The translations under genes and the position numbers were made by a program. Source: Desulfatibacillum sp. (lineage in GTDB: Bacteria; Desulfobacterota; Desulfobacteria; Desulfobacterales; SpSt-501). Taken from it: a stretch of 64,000 bases of DNA. The stretch covers positions 143,113-207,112 of the forward strand of contig DYEU01000018.1 of the NCBI GenBank assembly GCA_020725555.1, written 5' to 3'. Position 1 is the stretch's first letter. The number at the start of each line of letters is the position of its first letter. This document shows positions 1-14,132 of the stretch, in pieces. The notes beneath the pieces were generated by a model. The model searched no databases. It saw only the letters and a list, made by a program, of their open reading frames with translations, and was not told the origin of the DNA.

Positions 1-1078
1 GCCCCGGCGCGGAGGAGACGTGGATTTCGCCGCCGTGCTGTTCCACGATCTGGCGGGTGATGAACAGCCCAAGCCCCGTCCCCCGATCCCCCTTGGAAGA
101 AAAAAAGGGCGTGAACAGCTTGCCCTGGGTTTCCTCGTCCATGCCGGCCCCGTTGTCGAGAACGGTGAATTCGATCCGGTTCTTCTTGGGCCGCAGCCCG
201 AAGACGATGCGGGCCGGCCTGCGGGCGCCGGGGTCCCGGCAGGCATCGAGGGCGTTTTCGAGGAGGTGGGTCAGGGCGGCCTGCAGATAGGCGGGGGACG
301 CCTGGATCCGGCCGGCCCGCGGGTCGAATTCGGTGCTGAACCGGACCCCCGCCGCCGCCATCTTCTCCCTCACGGCGGCGGCGGTCTCTTCGGCCAGGCC
401 GAGCGCGTCGACCCGTTCAAGCTTGAGCTCGCGCTTTTTCGAGTAATAGAGAATGTCCAGAACGACGCGGCGGATCCGCTCCAGCCGCTGCTTGACGACC
501 TCCCAGCCCTCGACGATCTCCTCCCGGCGATCCCGCGCCAGCCCCTGGTCCACGAGGTACACGCCCGCGTCCAACCCGGTGAGCAACCCCTTGAGCGCAT
601 GCGAGATCGAGCCGAGCATCAGGCCGAGTGTGGACAGGTGGCTTTGCAGCTCGCTCTTCTCCGCGACCAGCCGCTCCAGGCGCTGCAGGTACTCCCGGAG
701 CTTTTCCCGGATCTGGATCCGTTCGACGGCGCGCCGCAGCGCGATCTCCAACGCCTCGACGTGGATGGGCTTGGTGATGAAGTCGGTCGCCTCGTGCTTC
801 AGGCTGCGGATCGCGAGGTCCAGGTCGCCGTGGCCGGTGATCATGATCACCTCGGTCTCCGGAGAGCGGTTCTTGATGCGGCGCAGCAGCTCAATCCCGT
901 CGAGGCCCGGCATCTTGATGTCCGTCAGCACGATCGGGGGCTGGAGGGCGGCGAAGCGCTCGAGGGCCTCCTCGCCGTTTTCGGCCTCGACGACTTCGAA
1001 GCCCAGCTCGCCGAGCGGCAGGCGCAGCACCTCCCGGATGTCCCTCTCGTCGTCGACCAGCAGGACCCGGTTATCCAT
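1..1078 (-). CDS. Receiver domain-histidine kinase protein (C-terminus beyond window start)
   Basis: Minus-strand translation from ATG at 1078: [28 protein letters not shown]..., IVLTDIKMPG phosphoacceptor, then HATPase motifs (ENALDAC, DNGAGMDEE, GDRGTGLGLFI). Start overlaps the upstream kinase stop by 8 bp. Confidence 0.85.
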   Translation of the reverse strand, partial: MDNRVLLVDDERDIREVLRLPLGELGFEVVEAENGEEALERFAALQPPIVLTDIKMPGLDGIELLRRIKNRSPETEVIMITGHGDLDLAIRSLKHEATDFITKPIHVEALEIALRRAVERIQIREKLREYLQRLERLVAEKSELQSHLSTLGLMLGSISHALKGLLTGLDAGVYLVDQGLARDRREEIVEGWEVVKQRLERIRRVVLDILYYSKKRELKLERVDALGLAEETAAAVREKMAAAGVRFSTEFDPRAGRIQASPAYLQAALTHLLENALDACRDPGARRPARIVFGLRPKKNRIEFTVLDNGAGMDEETQGKLFTPFFSSKGDRGTGLGLFITRQIVEQHGGEIHVSSAPG

Positions 1079-3380
1079 GGCCGTTCTCCGGCAGAGGGAA
1101 TTCGATCACGAAACAGGCGCCGCCCTCCGGGGCGGGCTTGACGCGGATTGTGCCGCGGCAGTCCTTGACGATGCCGTAGCTGATCGACAGGCCCAGGCCG
1201 GTCCCCTGCCCGGCCTGCTTGGTCGTGAAAAACGGCTCGAAGATCCGCTCGGCGAGGTGCGGCGGTACCCCCACCCCCGTGTCGCGGATCTCGCAGACCA
1301 CGTTCCGCCCGCTGCGGTAGGTGGCGATGTGAATGCGTTTCTCGCCCCCCCCCGCTTCCCGGCCGGCCCAGCGCTCCTCGATCGCGTCCCGCGCGTTGAT
1401 GAGCAAATTGATGAACACCTGCTCCAGCCGGCCCGGGTCGGCGTCGATTTTCGGCAACTCCGGGTCGGTCTCCCAGACCACCTCGATGCACCGCAGCTTG
1501 AGCTGCTGGCTGAAGACATCGAAGGCCCCGTGCAGGACGTCATTCACCTGGACCCGCTCGAGCTTGAGTTCGGACTTGCGGGCGAACTGCCGCAGGTGGT
1601 TGATGATGCGCGTGGCCCGGTCGATGTTCCCGTCGATCTTGCGCAGCATGGCCTCGAGGGTCGCCGGGTCGAGCGGCCGGCCGTCGTCGAGCTTGCGGAT
1701 GAAAAAGCTGCTCGCGGTCTTGATGACCGAGAGGGGCTGGTTGAGCTCGTGGGCGATGCCCGTCGCCATTTCCCCCAGGGTGGCCATCTTGCTCGCGTGA
1801 ATCAGCTGCTGCTCGGTTTCGAGTCGCTTGGTGATGTCGCTGGTCGTCACGAGCAGCACCTCCCGTCCGGGGTACTCGCCCGGGGAGATGCGGATGTTGA
1901 CGAAGATCCGCTTGCCGTCGGCCCGAAGGTGCTTGATCTGGTTGAGCTCGGAAACCCGGGGCAACAGCTCCCGGTAGGATTCCCGTTCCTCCGGGAAAAA
2001 ATAATCCAGAAACGAGCGTTGCAGGGCCTCCTCCCGTGTGTGGCCGTAAACCGTCGTCACGCTGCGGTTGCAGTCGACCACGTCGAGCGTGCGGGCATCC
2101 ACGACGAAGACCGGGTTGGGGATGTGGTTGAAGATCTCGTGATACTTCTTCTCGGAGCGCGCCAGCTGCTCCTCGAGCAGTTTGCGCTCGGTGATGTCCA
2201 GGCTCATCTCGAGCGCGGCGACCACCTCCCCCTGCCGGTTGTGGATGGGGGTCGTCCGAAAAATCCAGTGGGCGACGCTGCCGTCCTTGTTCAACCCGCT
2301 CTCCTCGCCCTGGTGCGGCTGCCCGTCCTCGAACGTCAGGGCCACCGGGCAGCGGGGGCAAGGCTCCTCCCGGCCCTTGTAGGCCCGGTAGCAGGTGTCG
2401 TTCTCGCGGGGCGCGAACCGCTCGGCGAATTCGCGGTTGAAGCGGAGCAGCCGGAAGTTCCGGTCCTGCAGGGTGATCAGGCAGGGGACGTTTTCGAAGA
2501 GGGTCTGGTATTCCTCGCGCTGAGCGTTCAGCTCCCCTTGTTTTTGCGCAATCTCGAGGCTCATCGTCTGGATCGCGCGGGCGAGCTGGCCCATTTCGTC
2601 TCGGCGTGCGACCGGGATGGGGTCGGGCGGCAACCCGCGGGCGATCCGCCGCGTTCCCGCAATCAGGTTCTGGACGGGCCGGTTGACAAACACGACGAGC
2701 AGGACGGCGAGCAGGCCCGAGGTGAGCAGAAAGACCGCCGCGGCCAGCCCGACCACGGCGCGCTTGCCCACGGCCAGCTCCCGGTCGGTGTCGGCGAGCG
2801 AGACCACGACGTCCAGGGCGCCGAGAATTTTCTTGTCTTCGGGGTGGATGTGGCAGGCGCCCGAGGAGCACCCCGGTTCGTTGTAGATCGGGCTGAGGAT
2901 GCCGATCCGGCGCGGCTCGCCGGGGACGGCCAGGATGCGCGTGCGGGAGGGAAGATCCAGATCGACGAGCGGCGGCTCCGTGCGGTGGCAGATGTCGCAG
3001 GCCTCGGCCTTGATGTTGGTTCTCGTGTCCACCTCGGCCGGTCGGTTGGAGAACTTGATCTCCCCCTCCTTGTTGTAGATGCGGATGTTGCGGATCTCGG
3101 GCTGGGTGCCGATGTTGGCGATGATCTGCGTGATGTCGTCGCGGGAATTGAGCATCATCGCGTAGTGCGTGCCCAGGCGGATCGTGTTGGTGAGGCGGTC
3201 GGTCGAGACGACGACGCTTTCCATGAGCTTGCGCTCCTGGTAGCTCGTGTTGAAATAGGCCCACGTCGCGATGGAAACGAACAGCGTCACCCCGACGGCG
3301 GAGATCAACCGCACCACGAGACGGTGCGGCAGCGCCGGAAGCCCCCCACCGCCCTCCCTCGCCTCCAGGCCGGTCTTCAT
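1071..3380 (-). CDS. Membrane sensor histidine kinase with heme-binding periplasmic domain, HAMP-like and PAS domains
   Basis: [11 protein letters not shown]...; N-terminal TM, CDICH and CSSGACH heme motifs, second TM, two PAS regions, [12 protein letters not shown]-box, [11 protein letters not shown]-box, GTGLGLSI G-box. Confidence 0.9.
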
Positions 3381-4306
3381 CGGCGAACCTCCTCCCCGTC
3401 CCTGCGGTCCGCCGCCCCGTCGGGGCTTCGGCCCCGCACCGCGGCCCGCCCCGGAGGCGTCGGGAGGGGAAGGCCGCCTTCCCCCCTGCAGCCGAGCGCC
3501 TCCTGCGGCAACCCCAGAGCGAGGCCGATGAGCTGGGGCAGGTAGAGCACGGTGCGGGCAAGATCGCGGCGCAATCGACGGCTTGCGGGCCCCTGAAAGG
3601 CCACGAGGTTCATCTGGCACATGGGGCAGACCGTGGCCACGGCGTCCGCGCCCCGGGCGTCGTCCAGGATCGCCGCGATGCGCGACAGCCCGGCCTCCCG
3701 TTGGGTGCTGGCCAGCGAGGCCCCGCAGCACGCCCCGCCCGATCGCCAGCGAAACACCTCGGCCCCCAGCGCCCGGATCAGCGGTTCCATCGATGTCGGC
3801 CGCTCGGGGTCGTCGAAGTCGGCATACGGCCGCAGGCACTGGCATCCGTAGTAGGGCGCGATGCGGATTCCCCGAAGGGGCCGGATGACCCGTGCGGCGA
3901 CCCGGTCGGCCCCCACGTCGCAGGCGAGCACGTCGAGGAGGTGCCGCACGCGCGTCCGCCCCTCCGGGCGGAGTTCCTCCACCGACAGCACCTCCCGGAT
4001 GGCGGCCGCCTCGCGCGGATTCGCGCGCATCGCCTGCGCCGCGTGCCGCAGGTTGAGGTAGCAGGCGCTGCAGGGGGCCAGGACGTCCCGCTTCGCCTCC
4101 CGGCGTTCGGCGAGCGCCAGGTTGCGCGCCGGCAGGACCCGGGCGAGCAGCGCGCCGGCGGCCCCGGCCGCGGAGGCGCCGCAGCAGGTCCAGTCGGGGA
4201 TCTCGAGCAACTCCACCCCCAGGGCGGCCAGAACCGCCCGGGTCGAGCGATCGTAGTCGCGCGCGGTGCCTTCCAGCGAACAGCCGGGGTAGTAGTGATA
4301 CCTCAT
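3377..4306 (-). CDS. hdrB: Heterodisulfide reductase subunit B-like protein (CCG domains)
   Basis: MRYHYYPGCSLEGTARDY..., PDWTCCGA, PCSACYLNL, YYGCQCLRP, GACCGASLA, CPMCQMNL: paired cysteine-rich CCG motifs. Confidence 0.9.
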   Translation of the reverse strand: MRYHYYPGCSLEGTARDYDRSTRAVLAALGVELLEIPDWTCCGASAAGAAGALLARVLPARNLALAERREAKRDVLAPCSACYLNLRHAAQAMRANPREAAAIREVLSVEELRPEGRTRVRHLLDVLACDVGADRVAARVIRPLRGIRIAPYYGCQCLRPYADFDDPERPTSMEPLIRALGAEVFRWRSGGACCGASLASTQREAGLSRIAAILDDARGADAVATVCPMCQMNLVAFQGPASRRLRRDLARTVLYLPQLIGLALGLPQEALGCRGEGGLPLPTPPGRAAVRGRSPDGAADRRDGEEVRR

Positions 4307-4863
4307 GGCGCGTTCTCCACCTCGGCCGCCCGGCGGAAGAGGGCCTCCAGGGAGCGGGACGGCCTGCGGCCGAGCGGCAGGGACCCGCGCGCGGCCAGTT
4401 GCAGCCCGAGCGCCGCGTGCCGCAACAGAAGCAGCGGGTTTTTGACCGCGGCGATGTAGTGCATCATGAAGGCCATCTCGTTCACCCTCCCGTTGCGCCG
4501 CACGCTTTCGAGAAACTGGTGATGGAAGGCCGTGACCGCGCGGTAGCGCCTCATCCGCCCGCGGTGTGCGGCTCGCTGGAGGGCGTGCATCGCCTCGGTC
4601 AGCGGCAAGCCGCGCGGGCAGCGCAGGGTGCAGCGGTAGCAGGCCGAGCATAGGGTGAAGGTCCGGCTGCGGAAGATCTCCTCCCCCCGGTCCAGCAGGA
4701 CCAGCCGCCAGAGGCGGCGGGGGGTGAGATCCATGGCGGCGGCGTTCGGGCAGGATCCCGAGCAGGTGCCGCATTGCATGCAGGCCTGGACCATCCGGCG
4801 CACGCGCTCAAGCTCGGCGCCGGCCGGCGGGAGCGAGGAATCCATCACCGGGGGCACGTTCAT
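4303..4863 (-). CDS. hdrC: Heterodisulfide reductase subunit C-like protein (two 4Fe-4S)
   Basis: MNVPPVMDSS...CMQCGTCSGSCPNA...CSACYRCTLRCPRGL; immediately upstream of hdrB with 4-bp overlap. Confidence 0.9.
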   Translation of the reverse strand: MNVPPVMDSSLPPAGAELERVRRMVQACMQCGTCSGSCPNAAAMDLTPRRLWRLVLLDRGEEIFRSRTFTLCSACYRCTLRCPRGLPLTEAMHALQRAAHRGRMRRYRAVTAFHHQFLESVRRNGRVNEMAFMMHYIAAVKNPLLLLRHAALGLQLAARGSLPLGRRPSRSLEALFRRAAEVENAP

Positions 4864-4948
4864 GAACCGTCTCCTTGCCCTGCCGCCCGCGGCCTTCGCC
4901 CCGGGGGGGTCGCGGCCGCGTGAAGCGGGCCTGCGGCCCGACCCGCCC

Positions 4949-7900
4949 TCAGCCGAGAGCCGCCTCGATGACGCCGAACATCTGGCGGGCGGAAAACCCT
5001 TCCAAGGTCGCGGCGTCGTTCGGGCAGACCGCGGCGCAGGCGCCGCATCCTTGGCACATGACCGGGTTGACGACCACCTGCCGGCGCTCGGGGTCCAGCC
5101 GGCGCGCCCCGTAGGGGCAGGCCTCGATGCACTGTTCGCAAAGGCTGCAGAGGCTGCGGCGGATGCGGGCCACGATCCGTCCGGAGGGCAGACGCTCCCG
5201 GCCCAGGATGGCGAGCGCCCGCACGGCGGCGGCTTGCGCCGTGGCGACGGCCTCCGGGATGGTGCGCGGCGAAAGCGCCAGACCGCAGGCAAAGACCCCC
5301 TCCTTCAGACCGTCCACCGGCCGCCACTTCGGGTCGGCTTCCTCGAAGAAGCCGTCGCGGTCCAGCCGGGCGCCGTATGCCTCGGCCAGCTCGCGGGGAA
5401 GGGTCGGCACGACACCGGCCGCCAGGACCACGAGCTGGGCCTCGATTTCGAGGGGCCGCCCGAGGATCGGCTCCTCCACCGTGACGACCGCCGCCCGGCC
5501 GGCCGGCCGGACCTCGGGGGGACGCTCCGGACGGTAGGGGATGAACAGCACGCCCTCTTGGCGCGCCCGGGTGAAGGCCGTCTCGGCGAAGCCGGGGGTC
5601 ATCAGGTCGCGGTAAAGCACGGCAGCGCGGAGGCCGGGGCGTCGCTCCCGGAGGGCCGCGATCTGCCTCAGGGCGGTGGGGCAGCAGACCCGGCTGCAGT
5701 AGTTGCGGGGCTCCCGCCGCGATCCGGCGCACTGGATCATCACGACCGCTTCCAGCGCGGCCGCCTCGAGCGTGCCCGCGGACAGGCTGCGCTCCAGCTC
5801 GGCCTGAGTCATCACGGCCGGGCTTTCGCCCCGACCGAAGCCGTGAACGGGCGCCTCCCGGCCGCCGGTCGCCAGAATGACGACCCCGTGTTCGATGCGC
5901 CGCACATCGCCCTGCGGACCCTCGAGGAGGGTGACGAACGAGCCCACCTCGCCCTCGGCCTGGACGACCCGCGATCGCGTGTGGAGCCGGATGCGGGGAT
6001 GCCTCTTGACCCGGGCTTCCAGGTCCTCCCGCAGGGACGGCACCGGGTGTCCCTCCAGGGTGCGCGTGAGCCAGGCGAGATTCCCGCCCAGCCGGTCGGC
6101 CGCCTCCACCAGATCCACCGCGACGCCGTGGTCGGCGACGGCCAGCGCCGCGGTCATGCCGGCGACACCGCCGCCCACCACCAGCGCTGCCCGCGTGATG
6201 GGGATGGCCTCCGTCTCGCGGGCTTCGGCGTTCTTCAAACGGACCAGGCCGCTTTGCAGGGCGAAGCGGGCGTCATGCGCGTCGGGGCGCGTTTCCCCGG
6301 CCCAGAGCGCCAAGTCGGCCGTCTCGATCCACCCGGCGGGCAGCCCGCTCGCCTCTTCGATCTCCCGGAGCGGGGACGGATGCCGCAGGAGCCGGCAGGC
6401 TCCGAGGAGCAGCCGGTTGGCGCCCGCGCGAGAGAGAAGCGCGGCCAGGCCGAGCCTTCCTTCCGCGGTGCACAACGGGGCGACGGGCTCCACCGCGGCC
6501 ACCTCCGGGTCGCGCCGCAGCGCATGGAGGACCGGATCCGGGAGCGCCGGGGCATCGGCCGAGCGCTCGCAGCGACAGAACACGGCGAGGATGCGGGGCG
6601 GCTCGCCCGCCGGGTGCTCGGAGAGCGCTGCGGGCGGCTTCTCCTCTTCGGCCGCCCCCCCTCCCGCGGCATGGAGGCGGAGCGAGGCCTCCGCGGCGGC
6701 GGCGGAAGCCTGGATCACCGTCTCGGCGATGTCCGCCATGCCGCCGCAGGTCCCCCCGATCAGGATGCCGGGATGCGCCGTGCGGCAGAGGGAAAAGGGC
6801 TCCGGGACGAGGAATCCCCAGGGGTTGAGGGCCAGCCCGAGCCGTTCCGCCGCTTCCGCGACGACCGGGGCCGGACGCCGGCCCACGGCCAGAACCACAA
6901 GATCGAAGGACTCCTCCCGGCATCCTCCGCCGGCCTCGACCCAGCGGATCCGCAGCCCTTTTCCTTCGGGCCCGCGGGTCACCGAGTGCGGCCGGGCCCG
7001 GACGAAGCGCACGCCGTGGAGTTCCTCGGCCCGCTCGCGATAGCGCTGGAACGATTTTCCCGGCGTGCGCACGTCCATGGAAAAGATCGTCGCCTCGAGC
7101 TCTGCTCCGGCGACCGCCTTCGCCCGCAGCGCCTCCTTGATGGAGGCCATGCAGCAGATGCTCGCGCAGAAGTCGGCCCCCTCCTGGAGGTCGCGCGAGC
7201 CCACGCACTGGATCCAGGCGATCCGGCCGACCGGTTGCCGGTCCCGGGGGCGCAGCAGGCGGCCCCCCGTGGGCCCGGTGCCGCTCAGCAGGCGCTCGAA
7301 TTCGAGCTGCGTCAGCACGCCGGCAAGCGCGCCGTAGCCGAAGGGGTTCTTCCCCGAAAGCGGGTCGTAGCCCTCCGAGCCGCCGCAGAGCACCACCGCG
7401 GCGGCCGTCAGGGGCAGGTCCTCCGCGGCGGCGAAGCGCTCGAAGCGCTCCGCCACCTTCGGGATGAGGGAGGCGACATCGAACGGCTTGATGAGGTAGT
7501 CGAGAGCCCCGATCTTCATCGCCTCCACCGCGGTCTCCACCGTGGCGTAGGCGGTCATCATCACGACATCCAGCGCCGGGCGCATCCGCTTCGCACGCTC
7601 GAGCACCTCGACCCCTTCCATGCCGGGCATCTTGATGTCGAGCAGCATGAGATGAAACGACTCCGCCTCGAGAGCGGCGAGCGCCTCGGGGCCCGAGGCG
7701 GCCATGGCCGCGGAAAACCCCTCGGCCTCGAGCCACTCCTTGAGCGAATCGCGCACCGAGAGCTCGTCGTCGACCACGAGAATCCGAAAGGAGCGGCGCT
7801 CGGCGCCCGGCAGACGGATGGCCCCCGTCGGGCAGGCCTCGAGGCAGGCGCCGCAGCGGGTGCAGGCCTCGGGGTCCAAGGCGTAGGCGTCCGGGAAGGC

Positions 7901-8356
7901 GTGCGGTGAAGGCCGGTCGATGGCCTTGCGCAGCGTGAGGCCGGCATTGAACGCGTCGGGCGTTTCCACGGGGCACACCGCGGCGCAGCGGCCGCAGCCG
8001 ACGCAGCGTTCCGGGTCGACCCCCCCCGAGACCCGGCGGAGCGTCACCCGCAGACGACCGGCCTCGCCCTCGATGGCCGCCACCTCGGTGTTCAGCCGCA
8101 GGTCGATCCGCTCGTGGAAGAAGCCGCGGCGCAGGCAATGCGCGGAGGCTGCGTCGCGCTCGATGCGGGGAAGCATGCGGCACAGGCCGCATCGATCCGT
8201 GGGGAACTGGGAGTCGAGCCGACCGAGGAGGCCGGTCGGGTGAGGCGCCCGGTCCACCAGGGTGACGCCGTAGCCGACCTCGGCCAGATCCAAGGCGGCG
8301 CGGATGCCGGCGATTCCGGCCCCGACCACCACGGCCCTTCCGACGCGGCGCTTCAT
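4949..8356 (-). CDS. hdrA: Tandem HdrA-like flavoprotein/polyferredoxin with embedded response-regulator receiver domain
   Basis: MKRRVGRAVVVGAGIAGIRAALDLAE..., multiple CxxCxxCxxxCP clusters, internal RILVVDDELSVRDSL...LMLLDIKMPGMEG...MMTAYA...YLIKPF, then second FAD unit AALVVGGGVAGMTAALAVADHG and terminal ferredoxin. Confidence 0.9.
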   Translation of the reverse strand: MKRRVGRAVVVGAGIAGIRAALDLAEVGYGVTLVDRAPHPTGLLGRLDSQFPTDRCGLCRMLPRIERDAASAHCLRRGFFHERIDLRLNTEVAAIEGEAGRLRVTLRRVSGGVDPERCVGCGRCAAVCPVETPDAFNAGLTLRKAIDRPSPHAFPDAYALDPEACTRCGACLEACPTGAIRLPGAERRSFRILVVDDELSVRDSLKEWLEAEGFSAAMAASGPEALAALEAESFHLMLLDIKMPGMEGVEVLERAKRMRPALDVVMMTAYATVETAVEAMKIGALDYLIKPFDVASLIPKVAERFERFAAAEDLPLTAAAVVLCGGSEGYDPLSGKNPFGYGALAGVLTQLEFERLLSGTGPTGGRLLRPRDRQPVGRIAWIQCVGSRDLQEGADFCASICCMASIKEALRAKAVAGAELEATIFSMDVRTPGKSFQRYRERAEELHGVRFVRARPHSVTRGPEGKGLRIRWVEAGGGCREESFDLVVLAVGRRPAPVVAEAAERLGLALNPWGFLVPEPFSLCRTAHPGILIGGTCGGMADIAETVIQASAAAAEASLRLHAAGGGAAEEEKPPAALSEHPAGEPPRILAVFCRCERSADAPALPDPVLHALRRDPEVAAVEPVAPLCTAEGRLGLAALLSRAGANRLLLGACRLLRHPSPLREIEEASGLPAGWIETADLALWAGETRPDAHDARFALQSGLVRLKNAEARETEAIPITRAALVVGGGVAGMTAALAVADHGVAVDLVEAADRLGGNLAWLTRTLEGHPVPSLREDLEARVKRHPRIRLHTRSRVVQAEGEVGSFVTLLEGPQGDVRRIEHGVVILATGGREAPVHGFGRGESPAVMTQAELERSLSAGTLEAAALEAVVMIQCAGSRREPRNYCSRVCCPTALRQIAALRERRPGLRAAVLYRDLMTPGFAETAFTRARQEGVLFIPYRPERPPEVRPAGRAAVVTVEEPILGRPLEIEAQLVVLAAGVVPTLPRELAEAYGARLDRDGFFEEADPKWRPVDGLKEGVFACGLALSPRTIPEAVATAQAAAVRALAILGRERLPSGRIVARIRRSLCSLCEQCIEACPYGARRLDPERRQVVVNPVMCQGCGACAAVCPNDAATLEGFSARQMFGVIEAALG

Positions 8357-9546
8357 CCCCGTCCTCCTTCGCTCCCGGGCGTGCGGCCAGGACCTCCGCC
8401 GCCGGCCGGGGCGGCCGGAATCCCGACGGCCTCCGTGAACTCCTCTTCGCGGAAGACCGCGAGCGGAGGGGGATCTTCCAGGCTCCGGCCGGCCTCGTAG
8501 CCGAAGGCCTGCTGGGTGCGGCGGGCGACGGTGCGGAAGACCTCCATGACCGCGATCCCCTGCGGGCAGGCGTTCGAGCATTGCCCGCACCCGACACAGG
8601 CCGTGCTCATGTGGGCGAGGCGGGTCAGATGGAAAAAGAGCGTGTCGCTCGGCAGCTTGAGCAGCCCCCCTCGTTCCGCCAAGCGCAGCACGTGGAAGGG
8701 GTCGTGCTCGAAGACGTCGGTCGCGAAGACGCATTCCCGGCAGGTGCATACCGGGCAGGCCACCCGGCAGTTGGTGCAGAGGAGGCAATCGGCGAAATAG
8801 GCCGCGGCCCCCTCGATGGTGGCGACGGCCGCCTCGGTGCGGGCGAAGAGCTCGTCGCGCGCGGCCGCCCGGCGGGCGATGAGGGCGCCGAGCGCCGCCT
8901 CCCGGGAAGGCAGGGGCTCGGCGGGCGGCAGCGCCGCGGCCGCGATCAGGGCTTCGCCGGCGGCCGTGCGGCCCTCGATCTGGAGGAACGTCCCGGCCTC
9001 CCCCCCCAGCAGCCCGATGTGCACGTCGGTGAACGGCGGCACCGGGTGCTCGCAGGCCCGGCAGGCGGGGGACAATCCCGGGTCGGGGGCCTCCCCCGAG
9101 AAGGCCTGCCGCAAAAACCGCTCCGTGTCCCCCGCGGTCTCCGCGCCCCCGGTCCGGAGAAACTCCCGCGTGGGGTAGGCACCGGGGCAGTCGAAGCTGA
9201 TCAGCACCGCCTCGTCGGTTCCCGCCTGCTTGAGCTTCACCATCTCGATGAACGCCCGGACTTCGCAGGGGCGCATCACCGCGGCCCAGCGCACCCCCAT
9301 CGGCTTCCGGCTCAGGCGCGCGGCCAACCGCGCGCCGTTGACCGCGAAGCAAGGCGAGAAGGGGTCGGCGCCCTCGAGCCGCTCCGGGTCGGTCACCAGG
9401 GTCGGCATCCGCAGGCGCTTGCGCGGCAGCGGCTGCGCCACCAGGACGGCCCCCACCGCCTGGGAATCCAGCAGCCGCCGCAGGAACCCGCGGACCGCGG
9501 CCGTGCGATCCCCCTGCCCCATCTCCAGGCGCGCCGTGACTCCCAT
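8353..9546 (-). CDS. FdhB/FrhB-like 4Fe-4S protein (F420-hydrogenase/formate dehydrogenase beta-type)
   Basis: MGVTARLEMGQGDR...; PCEVRAFIEMVKLKQ, CLLCTNCRVACPVCTCREC and CVGCGQCSNACPQGI; located between HdrA and MvhD. Confidence 0.75.
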   Translation of the reverse strand: MGVTARLEMGQGDRTAAVRGFLRRLLDSQAVGAVLVAQPLPRKRLRMPTLVTDPERLEGADPFSPCFAVNGARLAARLSRKPMGVRWAAVMRPCEVRAFIEMVKLKQAGTDEAVLISFDCPGAYPTREFLRTGGAETAGDTERFLRQAFSGEAPDPGLSPACRACEHPVPPFTDVHIGLLGGEAGTFLQIEGRTAAGEALIAAAALPPAEPLPSREAALGALIARRAAARDELFARTEAAVATIEGAAAYFADCLLCTNCRVACPVCTCRECVFATDVFEHDPFHVLRLAERGGLLKLPSDTLFFHLTRLAHMSTACVGCGQCSNACPQGIAVMEVFRTVARRTQQAFGYEAGRSLEDPPPLAVFREEEFTEAVGIPAAPAGGGGPGRTPGSEGGRG

Positions 9547-9574: not shown

Positions 9575-10000
9575 TCAGTAGACCGCCGTCACCGCGGCGG
9601 CCCGGTTGGGTCCGATCTCCCGAAGGCGGGCCACGAGCTCGTGCAGGACCTCCGCGAACCGGATGCCGTCGCTCGCCCCGATCCACGTTAGCCGCAGGCG
9701 CTCGGATTCGATCCCGAAGCACGGCAGGATCTCCTGCAGGAGCTTGATGCGACGGCGGGCCTTGAAGTTCCCGTTCAGGTAATGGCAATCCCCGGGATGG
9801 CAGCCGCTCACGAGCACCCCGTCGGCGCCGTGGAGCAGCGCCTTCAGAATGTACTGCGGGTCCACCATCCCGGTGCACATCACCCGGATCAGGCGCACGT
9901 TCTTGGGAACGCGGAGCCGGGACGTCCCGGCCAGGTCCGCCGCGGTGTAGGTGCACCAGTTGCAGACGAAGGCGATGAGGATGGGCTCGAAGTCCGTCAT
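9575..10000 (-). CDS. mvhD: MvhD-like hydrogenase/electron transfer delta subunit
   Basis: MTDFEPILIAFVCNWCTYTAADLAGTSR...VMCTGMVDPQYILKAL..GADGVLVSGCHPGDCHY: MvhD signature. Confidence 0.93.
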   Translation of the reverse strand: MTDFEPILIAFVCNWCTYTAADLAGTSRLRVPKNVRLIRVMCTGMVDPQYILKALLHGADGVLVSGCHPGDCHYLNGNFKARRRIKLLQEILPCFGIESERLRLTWIGASDGIRFAEVLHELVARLREIGPNRAAAVTAVY

Positions 10001-10049
10001 CGTTCCTCCCGCGCCGTCCACCCCCCCCGGCGCTCCGCCGCGGCAGGGC

Positions 10050-13000
10050 TCAGAGGCCGACCGCGTGCAGGGCGTCGAGGAGGCCGTCGCATTCGGCGAA
10101 GATCTGCTCTTTGCGGAAATGGCTCACCCGCGCGGCACCGCTCGGGCAGCCGGCGGCGCAGCTGCCGCAGCCCTTGCACAGCGCCTCGTTGACCACGGAA
10201 ACGCGCCGCCGCGCGTCGAAGGCGATGGCCGAATAGGGGCACAGCCCGATGCACGTCTGGCAGCCCGCGCACAGATCCGGGTCGATCGAAGAGACGGTCG
10301 ACGGAATCACGACCGAGCCCCGGCCCGCCAGGGCGAGCGCCTTCGCCGCCGCCCCCGAGGCCTGGGCGACGGTGTCGGGAATGTCCTTGGGCCCCTGGCA
10401 GGCGCCCGCCAGGAAAACCCCGTCGGTCGCCGTGTTGAGCGGGCCCAGCTTGGGGTGTTCCTCGAGAAAGAATCCGTCCGCCCCGCGGTTGACCCCGAAG
10501 ATCCGCCCCACCTCGGAGGCGTCCCGGCGTGCCTCCATCGCCGGGCACAGAATCACCAGATCCACCGGGACCCGCAGCAGAATCCCGGAGAGCGTGTCCT
10601 CGGCGACCGCCACGAGCCCCCCCTCCTCGGGGGGCTCGGCGGCCCCCTCGGTGATCTCCGCCACCCGGCCGCGGATGAAAACGGTCCCCTCTTCCTGGCA
10701 GCGCCGATAGAACTCCTCGTAGCCTTTCCCGTAGCAGCGCTGGTCGATGTAGAAATCGTACACCGGGGTCGCCGGCCCCACCTTTTCGTGGATCAGGTGA
10801 CCGTACTTGAGGGCGGCCATGCAGCAAACGCGCGAGCAGTAGGCATGCGCGTTCACGTCCCGGCTGCCGACGCAGTGGACAATGGCCGCGCTGCGCGGGG
10901 GCCGCGTGAACCTCCCGGCCCCGTCGCGCAGCAGAATCCGCCCCCCCGTCGGCCCGGTCGCGTTCGAGAGCCGCTCGAATTCGAGACTCGTGATGACGTT
11001 CGGGTAGCGGCCGTAGCCGAAGGCTTTCAGGGGGGTGGGGTCCATCAGGTCGAAGCCGGTGGCGAGCAGGATGCTGCCGACCTGGACGGAAATCTCCTCC
11101 GCGGCCATGCGGTGATCGATCGCCTTCGCCTCGCAGACCCGCACGCACTCCAGGCACTCGCAGCAGGCACCGCAGTTGAGGCAGCGCCCGGCCTCGGCGC
11201 GTGCCTCCTCCTCGGAAAGGTTGAGATCCACCTCCCCGAAATCTTGCCGGCGCAGGGAGAGCTCCGCTCTCCGGGGGCGAACCCGCATGCGGCGTGCGAC
11301 GGACGGGGGGATCGCGGCCCAGTCGCCTGCGGACGCGGGCCGCTCCTCCGGTCCGGCTCCGACCGCCGCAGGGTCCTGTCCCTGCAGGAAGCGGTCGATC
11401 GCCGCCGCCGCCCGGTGGCCGGCGGCCACGGCCTCGATGACCGTGGCCGGTCCGCTGACCGCATCGCCGCCGGCAAACACCCCGGGGACCGCCGTCTGCA
11501 GCGAGGCGGGCTCGACGGCGATCGTGCCGCGTGGGGTCGTCGGCAACCCCTCCAGCCCCTCCGGGTCGACCCCCTGGCCCACGGCCGCCATGACCGCGTC
11601 GCATTCGATCACGAATTCCGAGCCCGCGACGGGCACGGGCCGTCGCCGCCCCCGTTCATCGGGGGGCCCGGGCTCGGTGCGCAGGCATTCCAGGCCGACC
11701 GTGCGGCCGTCGCGGCGGAGAACGCGGACGGGGGCCGTCAGAAAACGGATCGCCACCCCCTCGGCCAGCGCATCCTCGATTTCCTCGGCGTAGGCGGGCA
11801 TCTCCCGCCGGGTCCGTCGGTAGACGATCACCACGCTCCGGCTTCCTACACGGAGCAGCGCCCGCGCCGCATCCACGGCCACGTTGCCGCCCCCGATGAC
11901 CGCCACCCGATCTCCCAGCCGGGGGCGCTCCCCGAGGTTGACGCGCCGCAGCCATTCGACGGCGTTCACGACCCCGCCCTCGGCTTCGCCGCCGATCCCC
12001 GCGTTCAGCCCGCGGTGGGCGCCGATCGCCACGAACACCGCGGCGTAGCCCGCGGCCGGGAGATCCTCCAGGCGGAAATCCCGCCCGAGGCGCACTCCGG
12101 TCCGGACCTCGATGCCCGTCCGCAGGATGTAGGCGATTTCCCGGTCGAGCACGTCCGGCGGCAAGCGGTAGTCGGGAATCCCGACCCGCAGCATGCCTCC
12201 CAGCCGGTCGAGGGCCTCGAAGATCGTCACCGCATAACCGCGCCGGCGCAAATCGAAGGCCGCCGTGAGGCCCGCCGGCCCGGAGCCGACGACGGCCACC
12301 CGCTGGGGCCGCTCGACGATCGGCGGCGGGGGAAGCTCGTTCCAATCGACCCGGTCCGCCGCGAAGCGCTTGAGGTCTCGGATGGCCAGGGCCTCGTCGA
12401 CATCGGCCCGGCGGCAGCGGCTCTCGCAGGGGTGGGGGCACACCCGGCCCAGGACCCCCGGGAGCGGCAGCCGTTCCAGGATCACCTGCACCGCCTCGCG
12501 CACCTTTCCCTGCCGGATGAGCTGCACATACCCCTGCACGTTGATTCCCGCGGGGCAGGCGGCCTGGCAGGGGGCCCGGTCCTTCTTGACGATGTCAAAG
12601 GCGATCGGGATCGCCTGGGGAAAGGCCCGGCCGATGGCGCGCCGTGTCCCGAGCCCCGCGTCCCAATCGCTGGGGAGTTCCACCGGGCAGACCTTGGCGC
12701 ACTCGCCGCAGCCGGTGCAGACCCCCTCCTTCACGTAGCGCGGATTCCGGCGGATGGTGACGGTGTAGTTGCCGATGAAGCCGCTCACCTCGCGGACCTC
12801 GCTGCCGGTAAGGAGGGTGATGTTCGGATGCTGCGCCACCTCGACCATCTTGGGGGTTCCGATGCACGCGGCGCAGTCGAGCGTGGGGAAGGTCTTGTCG
12901 AACTGCAGCATGCGGCCGCCGATCGTGGTCTGCTTTTCGACGAGAACGACCCGGCGGCCGCCGTTGGCGATGTCGAGCGCGGCCTGCATGCCGGCGATCC

Positions 13001-13442
13001 CGCCCCCGACGACCAGGACATCCGGATGGACGCTCACTTCCCGGGTTTCCAGGGCGTAATGCCGCCTCACGCGCTCGACGGCCGCCGCCACCAGCGTCTT
13101 CGCCTTGCGGGTGGCGGCGTCCTCCTCTTCGGTCACCCAGGAAACCTGCTCGCGCACCGAGGCCATCTGGAAGAAGTACGGGTTGAGCCCGGCCCGTCGG
13201 CAGGCGGCCTGAAAGGTTTTCTCGTGCAGCCGGGGCGAGCAGGAGGCGACCACGACGCGGTCCAGGGCCAGGGTGCGGATGTCGCTTTCGATCAAGTCCT
13301 GGCCCGGGTCCGAGCACATGAACTTGTAGTCGCGCGCCACGACCACCTGCGGCAGCCGCCGCGCAAACTCCGCCACCTCTTCCACCCGAACCCGGTAGGC
13401 GATGTTGATCCCGCAGTGGCAGATGTAGACGCCGATGCGCAT
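10050..13442 (-). CDS. hdrA: HdrA-like protein with inserted NfnB/GltD-like FAD/NAD(P) oxidoreductase module
   Basis: MRIGVYICHCGINIAYRV..., VVGGGIAGMQAALDIA, CTGCGECAKVCP, then insert APCQAACPAGINVQGYVQL...RVAVVGSGPAGLTAAFDL...DRVAVIGGGNVAVDAAR, then C-terminal polyferredoxin. Confidence 0.92.
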   Translation of the reverse strand: MRIGVYICHCGINIAYRVRVEEVAEFARRLPQVVVARDYKFMCSDPGQDLIESDIRTLALDRVVVASCSPRLHEKTFQAACRRAGLNPYFFQMASVREQVSWVTEEEDAATRKAKTLVAAAVERVRRHYALETREVSVHPDVLVVGGGIAGMQAALDIANGGRRVVLVEKQTTIGGRMLQFDKTFPTLDCAACIGTPKMVEVAQHPNITLLTGSEVREVSGFIGNYTVTIRRNPRYVKEGVCTGCGECAKVCPVELPSDWDAGLGTRRAIGRAFPQAIPIAFDIVKKDRAPCQAACPAGINVQGYVQLIRQGKVREAVQVILERLPLPGVLGRVCPHPCESRCRRADVDEALAIRDLKRFAADRVDWNELPPPPIVERPQRVAVVGSGPAGLTAAFDLRRRGYAVTIFEALDRLGGMLRVGIPDYRLPPDVLDREIAYILRTGIEVRTGVRLGRDFRLEDLPAAGYAAVFVAIGAHRGLNAGIGGEAEGGVVNAVEWLRRVNLGERPRLGDRVAVIGGGNVAVDAARALLRVGSRSVVIVYRRTRREMPAYAEEIEDALAEGVAIRFLTAPVRVLRRDGRTVGLECLRTEPGPPDERGRRRPVPVAGSEFVIECDAVMAAVGQGVDPEGLEGLPTTPRGTIAVEPASLQTAVPGVFAGGDAVSGPATVIEAVAAGHRAAAAIDRFLQGQDPAAVGAGPEERPASAGDWAAIPPSVARRMRVRPRRAELSLRRQDFGEVDLNLSEEEARAEAGRCLNCGACCECLECVRVCEAKAIDHRMAAEEISVQVGSILLATGFDLMDPTPLKAFGYGRYPNVITSLEFERLSNATGPTGGRILLRDGAGRFTRPPRSAAIVHCVGSRDVNAHAYCSRVCCMAALKYGHLIHEKVGPATPVYDFYIDQRCYGKGYEEFYRRCQEEGTVFIRGRVAEITEGAAEPPEEGGLVAVAEDTLSGILLRVPVDLVILCPAMEARRDASEVGRIFGVNRGADGFFLEEHPKLGPLNTATDGVFLAGACQGPKDIPDTVAQASGAAAKALALAGRGSVVIPSTVSSIDPDLCAGCQTCIGLCPYSAIAFDARRRVSVVNEALCKGCGSCAAGCPSGAARVSHFRKEQIFAECDGLLDALHAVGL

Positions 13443-13444
13443 CG

Positions 13445-13885
13445 TCACCCCCCTCTGCGCGGCCGCGGGTGCGCGGGGTTCTTGCCGCGGGGTGCGGTGA
13501 GCGCCCGCACCTGACGGAGGAGCTCGTCGGCGGCGAGCGGCCGTTTCAGGAAGACCAGCGCGGCGCAAGGCCCCTCCGGCGCCCTCGGCTCCCTGAGTTT
13601 CGCAGGGAACACCCCCCGCGGATCGACGCTGGCCACGCAAATCACGGGAACCTTGCGCAAACGCAAGTCCCGGCAAAGATCCTGCAGCAGCCCCAGGCTG
13701 GCGACATCCGGCACGGGCAGCGCCATGACGATCAGGTCGGGTCGTTCGTGGCGGGCCAGCTGCATCGCGTCCCGCGCGCTGCCGGCGGCGAGCGGCCGGC
13801 AGCCGCCCGCCGCCAGCAGATTGCAAATCAAGGTGCGCCCGTCGGCCTCCTCGTGGATCACCACCACCTTGACGGGCTTCTCCAT
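13445..13885 (-). CDS. Degenerate (pseudo-)receiver domain protein
   Basis: MEKPVKVVVIHEEADGRTLICNLLAAGG...DLIVMALPVPDVASLG...VFLKRPLAADELL; CheY-like fold pattern, acidic pair and phosphoacceptor Asp apparently missing. Confidence 0.7.
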   Translation of the reverse strand: MEKPVKVVVIHEEADGRTLICNLLAAGGCRPLAAGSARDAMQLARHERPDLIVMALPVPDVASLGLLQDLCRDLRLRKVPVICVASVDPRGVFPAKLREPRAPEGPCAALVFLKRPLAADELLRQVRALTAPRGKNPAHPRPRRGG

Positions 13886-13962
13886 GCGTGACCCCGATGC
13901 GGCTTCCGGCGGCCGGTGCCCCTGCCTGCACCTTGCGCCTAACACGAAGCGTGCCGCCGCGG

Positions 13963-13978
13963 GCTTCGTAAATGCCTC
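13963..13978 (-). promoter_or_regulatory. Possible sigma-54 -24/-12 promoter of the hdr operon
   Basis: Minus strand contains TTGAGGCATTTACGAAGCCC: GG-N10-GC spacing, partial match to TGGCAC-N5-TTGC. Confidence 0.4.
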
Positions 13979-14038
13979 AATAGATTTCCATGGGTTATGA
14001 GGAAGACGCGCAGCGGGAAGCGGCGGGAAGAAAAAAAG

Positions 14039-14132
14039 TGTTGCACAGTATGCAACATAAAAAGCGTTGCATCTAACTGAAAATATTGTCTTTAACAGAC
14101 TATCGCCCCAGAAATGCAACTTGATGCAACAT
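14039..14132. promoter_or_regulatory. Cluster of TGCAAC sites (putative enhancer-binding sites)
   Basis: Perfect inverted repeat TGTTGCA-CAGTA-TGCAACA at 14039-14057; GTTGCAT at 14066-14072; ATGCAAC at 14114-14120 and 14124-14130. Confidence 0.65.

Follow-up and report, generated by a model that had tools for sequence, protein, structure and literature searches.

A conserved receiver domain embedded in a double HdrA protein as a candidate two-component switch for the ferredoxin branch of a predicted electron-bifurcating complex

We analyzed a DNA stretch of 64,000 nucleotides from Desulfatibacillum sp. (referred to as the window) and found that it encodes a single-chain double HdrA protein with a complete response-regulator receiver (REC) domain embedded in its first HdrA module, in the following termed HdrA-REC. 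Its architecture, intact active sites, conservation and gene linkage are read directly from the sequences. The interpretation we favor, with a probability of roughly 0.55, is that redox-sensing kinases would phosphorylate HdrA-REC itself and thereby gate the ferredoxin branch of a bifurcating complex. The genome of the window's organism, which we infer to be a Desulfobacterales-type sulfur-compound reducer, also carries dsrA.

The HdrA-REC gene (4949-8356, minus strand) is an uninterrupted open frame starting with ATG at 8356 and encoding 1135 aa, with HdrA and Response_reg matches in Pfam and NCBIfam. The best solved relatives of the regions flanking the receiver are the methanogen HdrA chains 8rvu and 5odc (E ~1e-100), while those of the insert itself are CheY-like receivers. 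Aligned with chain 8rvu_a, aa 7-181 correspond to HdrA residues 153-317 and aa 312-464 to residues 323-473; aa 584-722 match the HdrA N-terminal domain weakly, with its four cysteines conserved, and aa 958-1134 match the end of HdrA including the C-terminal ferredoxin domain. Based on these segment matches, the chain consists of two HdrA modules, delimited by the 8rvu_a alignment and cysteine conservation. Module 1 (aa 1-560; 6677-8356, minus) comprises a FAD motif, the inserted ferredoxin domain, REC and the remaining FAD domain; it retains the CxxC, with C59 as the equivalent of Cys197, and the N-terminal domain is absent. Module 2 (aa 584-1115; 5012-6607, minus) contains the N-terminal domain with four cysteines, a FAD motif and the C-terminal ferredoxin domain, the predicted input from MvhD, and is devoid of the inserted ferredoxin domain. 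Taken across both modules, the inserted ferredoxin, the C-terminal ferredoxin and the N-terminal cluster domain are present once each, with conserved cysteines, and the two FAD motifs (GxGxxG, TrxR-like fold; PF07992 matched) are invariant in all copies scored. The NCBIfam HdrA scores stay far below their cut-offs (560 bits versus 1100 for NF040770, 457 versus 1400 for NF041778), so the protein is homologous to HdrA and not a methanogen equivalog. The original prediction of a tandem HdrA-like protein at 4949-8356 thus stands with regard to the two modules, with the correction that the gene lies on the minus strand and that only the first module carries REC.

The REC domain spans aa 192-301 (7454-7783, minus), where PF00072 scores 101.1 bits (cut-off 30.2, E=5e-29) with HdrA segments on either side according to Pfam, NCBIfam and the 8rvu_a alignment. 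This agrees with the complete CheY-like receiver proposed from the sequence, except that the range then given (7425-7788) includes linker in addition to the domain. The inserted ferredoxin domain (aa 112-181; 7814-8023, minus), with eight invariant cysteines, aligns up to HdrA residue 317 of 8rvu_a; REC and its linkers stand in for the five-residue connection from this domain to the rest of the FAD domain, and the insertion point falls between residues 317 and 323, where the inserted ferredoxin rejoins the FAD domain. The residues of the standard receiver active site are all present in HdrA-REC of the window, as originally quoted: D196-D197 (7766-7771), the predicted phospho-acceptor Asp240 (codon 7637-7639), T268 (7553-7555) and K290 (7487-7489), all on the minus strand. 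An AlphaFold model of the full-length protein, built from 4 sequences, supports a receiver of five beta-alpha units in the 7454-7783 region but not its placement (pLDDT 57, pTM 0.37), so that the structure prediction envisaged for the fusion answered only the first of these two points.

The search query for the fusion ran from ferredoxin through REC into HdrA, and full-length matches across both junctions were counted. Both junctions were matched in 25/58 order-level relatives and in 14/395 genomes phylum-wide. At the class level, a profile of REC with both junctions matched 139/390 genomes, two of which hold only a REC flanked by universal stress protein (USP) domains; this leaves about 137/390, of which a few are truncated where the contig stops. 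About a third of the sampled class genomes therefore carry the HdrA-REC fusion, and the expectation of similar architectures in other Desulfobacterota proved right. A scan of named genomes gave at least three fusions (L107, L108, L120) among the matches listed. The fusion was not found in 199 genomes sampled from the phylum of a locus labelled Acidobacteriota (0/199) or in 198 from that of a locus labelled Nitrospirae (0/198), each at that search's sensitivity, and the scan of viral sequences showed none. These full-length matches across both junctions, and the recurrence of the fusion in 119 loci of independent assemblies, rule out chance or a chimeric assembly, against which the fusion had to be checked. 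That HdrA-REC is an artefact of assembly or annotation can, given this recurrence, be practically dismissed.

Among the 119 fusion loci read, 118 were readable for the active site, one being disrupted. The residue set is DDDTK in 115/118, a single copy reads DEDTK, and the copies of two sister genomes read DPDAH; a phosphorylatable set is hence kept in 116/118 copies, and both FAD motifs as well as the Fe-S cysteines of both modules are essentially invariant. An always-degenerate receiver, raised at the outset as an objection, is ruled out by these 115 intact sites together with the DEDTK copy. A degenerate REC was seen in the HdrA fusions of L105 and L106 and in a third, more distant genome, L301: the acidic pair and the threonine are lost, and the lysine is lost in two of them. 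In the tree, the degenerate RECs of L105 and L106 nest among intact fusions, which indicates secondary loss. Their genomes are free of the heme kinase described below; the L301 genome does have one, elsewhere in the genome, so the correlation between degenerate receiver and missing kinase is not clean. The operon itself offers a comparison: at its head lies a free-standing receiver-like protein (frame 13445-14119, minus, with the true start probably inside it), whose PF00072 score of 22.6 bits is below the cut-off and which also occurs upstream in 42 other fusion loci. Its phospho-acceptor position is Asp in 19/43 copies, Asn in 18 and lost in the others, and judged by these residues it is apparently drifting to a pseudo-receiver. 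Since the embedded REC is intact in 116/118 copies while the free receiver of the same operon drifts, the former appears to be kept functional and under constraint.

HdrA-REC is part of a conserved gene order HdrL-MvhD-FrhB-HdrA(REC)-HdrC-HdrB. Upstream in the window and on the same minus strand are an FrhB/FdhB-like Fe-S protein (8353-9546; weak PF04432 and Fer4 matches), MvhD/FlpD (9575-10021; PF02662, 176 bits) and HdrL (10050-13448; Pfam, NCBIfam), an HdrA whose ferredoxin domain is interrupted by an NAD(P)H-binding module resembling NfnB/GltD; they adjoin HdrA-REC in 100/102, 97/99 and 82/84 loci, respectively. Downstream follow an HdrC-like protein (4303-4908, minus; TIGR03290 74 bits, below the equivalog cut-off) and an HdrB-like protein with two CCG domains (3377-4330, minus; PF02754, TIGR03288 144 bits), conserved in 88/106 and 82/101 loci; the FrhB and HdrCB assignments are at family level. 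Several neighbours overlap by a few bases (HdrL/receiver-like protein, HdrA-REC/FrhB, HdrB/kinase and kinase/REC-kinase), consistent with a single transcript. The HdrL of this operon is a bacterial protein, almost always adjoining HdrA-REC, whose NfnB/GltD-like insert resembles that of ANME-1 HdrA9-11. HdrCB is missing downstream in L071, L073, L077, L086, L237 and about 13 others, and several of these loci encode a long HdrC-matching protein upstream of HdrL, as if it were a replacement. Conversely, L222 and L229 have HdrC and HdrB after HdrA-REC, with HdrL, MvhD and FrhB not nearby.

Two kinase genes complete the operon in the window. The first (1071-3380, minus) encodes a membrane histidine kinase with a periplasmic sensor, HAMP, two PAS domains, HisKA and HATPase (Pfam); the second (2-1078, minus) encodes a REC-histidine kinase that continues past the window start (Pfam; locus L303). 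The sensor carries the heme-c motifs CxxCH and CX4CH, both present in 63/63 homologues covering them, and the phospho-His is present in 67/67. The proposed heme-type sensor kinase is thereby borne out at motif level, as a predicted c-type heme sensor with a complete transmitter. Both kinases are conserved partners: the heme kinase adjoins 69/91 fusion loci and the REC-kinase 56/81. As 22/91 loci are without a neighbouring heme kinase, some of them having other kinases, the pairing with HdrA-REC is not strict. Genome-wide, the heme sensor occurs in 20/27 genomes with an intact fusion versus 4/20 class genomes without a detected one (Fisher p=0.0004, with genomes treated as if unrelated; in one of these four, the locus is cut by a contig end). 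The window's own genome holds a second heme sensor kinase, 52% identical, on contig C10 (L302:8328-10607), next to several receivers, a REC-kinase, a double USP protein and membrane redox-complex-like genes, so this type of sensor apparently works with a further electron-transfer complex too.

Relatives without the receiver also exist. In L307-L309 the double HdrA passes from the ferredoxin motif straight into the FAD domain, and the heme kinase is absent from these three operons; the contrast "no receiver, no kinase" rests on these three loci. Receiver-less double-HdrA junctions were detected in 24/390 class genomes, and 14 of these, the ones amenable to extraction, group as a single clade (0.997) in a tree with the REC-bearing copies whose root support is 0.25. 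The existence of such complexes implies that the receiver is not needed for the chemistry of the complex and points to regulation. Nearly the same REC, 59-64% identical including the linkers, was also observed between two USP domains (USP-REC-USP; L102:13695-15017, L054:949-2346, also L238, L243, L248, L256, L261 and L313-L315), with genes often adjoining the HdrA-REC operon or its kinase. Here, the hosts are universal stress proteins and not HdrA. The RECs of L102, L238, L243, L248, L256 and L261 score 185-200, compared with at most 144 for other RECs, and the USP RECs nest among the HdrA RECs in the tree, with weak basal support. Being as close as HdrA ones, they suggest a mobile regulatory cassette, with the same kinases perhaps serving both hosts.

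Response regulators with enzymatic outputs, such as CheB and PleD, have a REC linked directly to an enzyme. In HdrA-REC, by contrast, the receiver is inserted inside the catalytic chain and the output is a respiratory redox enzyme. With the HdrA of methanogen HdrABC-MvhADG (5odc, 8rvu) it has in common the FAD domain, the inserted ferredoxin, the N- and C-terminal cluster domains and the MvhD, HdrB and HdrC alongside, but it differs in having two modules per chain, complementary domain loss and a REC after the inserted ferredoxin, the domain through which electrons are proposed to reach free ferredoxin in the methanogen enzyme (PMC9012536). The complementary pattern of N-terminal domain and Cys197 is shared with the fused or tandem HdrA pairs of ANME (HdrA3/4) and Moorella (MetFV-HdrABC-MvhD) (PMC9012536); the two modules stand in the opposite order here, however, and that paper describes no receiver (PMC9012536). 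Large inserts in or at the inserted ferredoxin domain have a precedent in ANME-1 HdrA9-11 and in HdrL of Desulfobacterium autotrophicum with its NfnB/NADH module, the same kind of gene as the HdrL upstream in the window; those inserts are catalytic, whereas that of HdrA-REC is a receiver. One fusion locus, L284, which lies in a genome assigned to the window's order and encodes the fusion with HdrL, MvhD, FrhB, HdrC and HdrB, fits the published locus VIII of D. autotrophicum HRM2, given as hdrL/hdrA4/hdrCB (PMC2702500), and is very probably this locus; the main-text passages on hdrA4 make no mention of a receiver (PMC2702500). We found no published description of an HdrA with a receiver, CheY or response regulator in the open papers searched, consistent with no characterised example having been known at the outset. 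HdrA fusions and receiver-driven enzymes are each known; none of the open papers searched was found to describe the two joined as they are here across much of a class.

In the mechanism we propose, HdrA-REC would sit at the centre of a flavin-based complex in the cytoplasm that bifurcates or confurcates electrons, HdrL-MvhD-FrhB-HdrA-HdrC-HdrB, and whose activity a two-component system would set post-translationally. Electrons from MvhD would enter module 2 via the C-terminal ferredoxin domain and pass through the N-terminal Fe-S cluster of this module, completed by a cysteine of module 1. From there they would reach the inserted ferredoxin domain, of which the chain has just one and through which they are predicted to leave to soluble ferredoxin. 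The co-encoded membrane kinase with its periplasmic c-heme motifs, together with the REC-kinase, would phosphorylate Asp240; the phosphorylated REC might then shift where the ferredoxin domain is hinged, moving or locking this domain, so that the ferredoxin branch would be opened or closed according to the periplasmic redox state. Phosphoryl transfer, the identity and pairing of the kinases, gating, the sign of the effect, the direction of electron flow and the substrates are what we infer here. Because the full-length model is too weak for contacts between receiver and ferredoxin domain, the gating step is drawn solely from the insertion point.

The main rival to gating is that REC phosphorylation controls assembly or partner choice, involving HdrBC, HdrL, FrhB or a USP-REC-USP protein, and not electron flow within HdrA. 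REC is a common interaction module, and the close RECs in USP-REC-USP proteins beside the same operons (L102, L238, L243, L248, L256, L261, L314, L315) suggest that both kinds of protein may use it for docking or dimerisation; moreover, roughly one locus in five has no HdrCB downstream, so the partners of HdrA-REC vary. The insertion at the electron-exit domain argues for gating instead, and assembly would be served equally well by a terminal fusion; we regard control of assembly as unlikely, yet as the alternative to be taken most seriously. A reversed flow of information, in which REC reports the redox state or occupancy of HdrA to the kinases, as a phosphate sink or by redox-dependent dephosphorylation, appears less probable still. 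HdrA would then be a phosphorelay input and the local NtrC-type regulator its output, and there are indeed Sigma-54 activators and several kinases in or beside the operon; however, the operon kinases own sensor inputs (c-heme motifs, PAS), and phosphate sinks are usually free RECs, of which the operon head already has one.

Receivers can also act without phosphorylation, which is a point against the favored mechanism. In L105, L106 and L301 the enzyme evidently tolerates the loss of the active site. To regard REC in general as a purely structural or relic spacer that has lost phosphorylation is nevertheless improbable, even more so than the reversed flow, in view of the 116/118 intact active sites across dozens of families and of the nested position of L105 and L106, which marks theirs as a secondary loss. 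Phosphorylation-dependent gating of the ferredoxin branch is thus the reading we retain. Its class-wide form, that is, direct two-component control of bifurcation in which the c-heme kinase reads the periplasmic redox state and a phosphate on the enzyme gates the ferredoxin branch, is put forward more tentatively, with the odds slightly against it.

To our knowledge, the regulation of flavin-based electron bifurcation in anaerobes is an open question. In about one in three genomes sampled from a major class of sulfate reducers, the enzyme contains a phosphorylatable switch beside its predicted ferredoxin outlet, usually encoded near a heme redox sensor. The receiver-less and degenerate-receiver versions are natural controls with which the idea that phosphorylation controls bifurcation can be put to a direct test, very probably in D. 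autotrophicum, which is cultured and completely sequenced. If the proposal is true, signalling would act on energy-conserving electron flow within seconds and without transcription, and many Desulfobacterales sulfate reducers may tune their electron flow directly by phosphorylation, not via gene expression.
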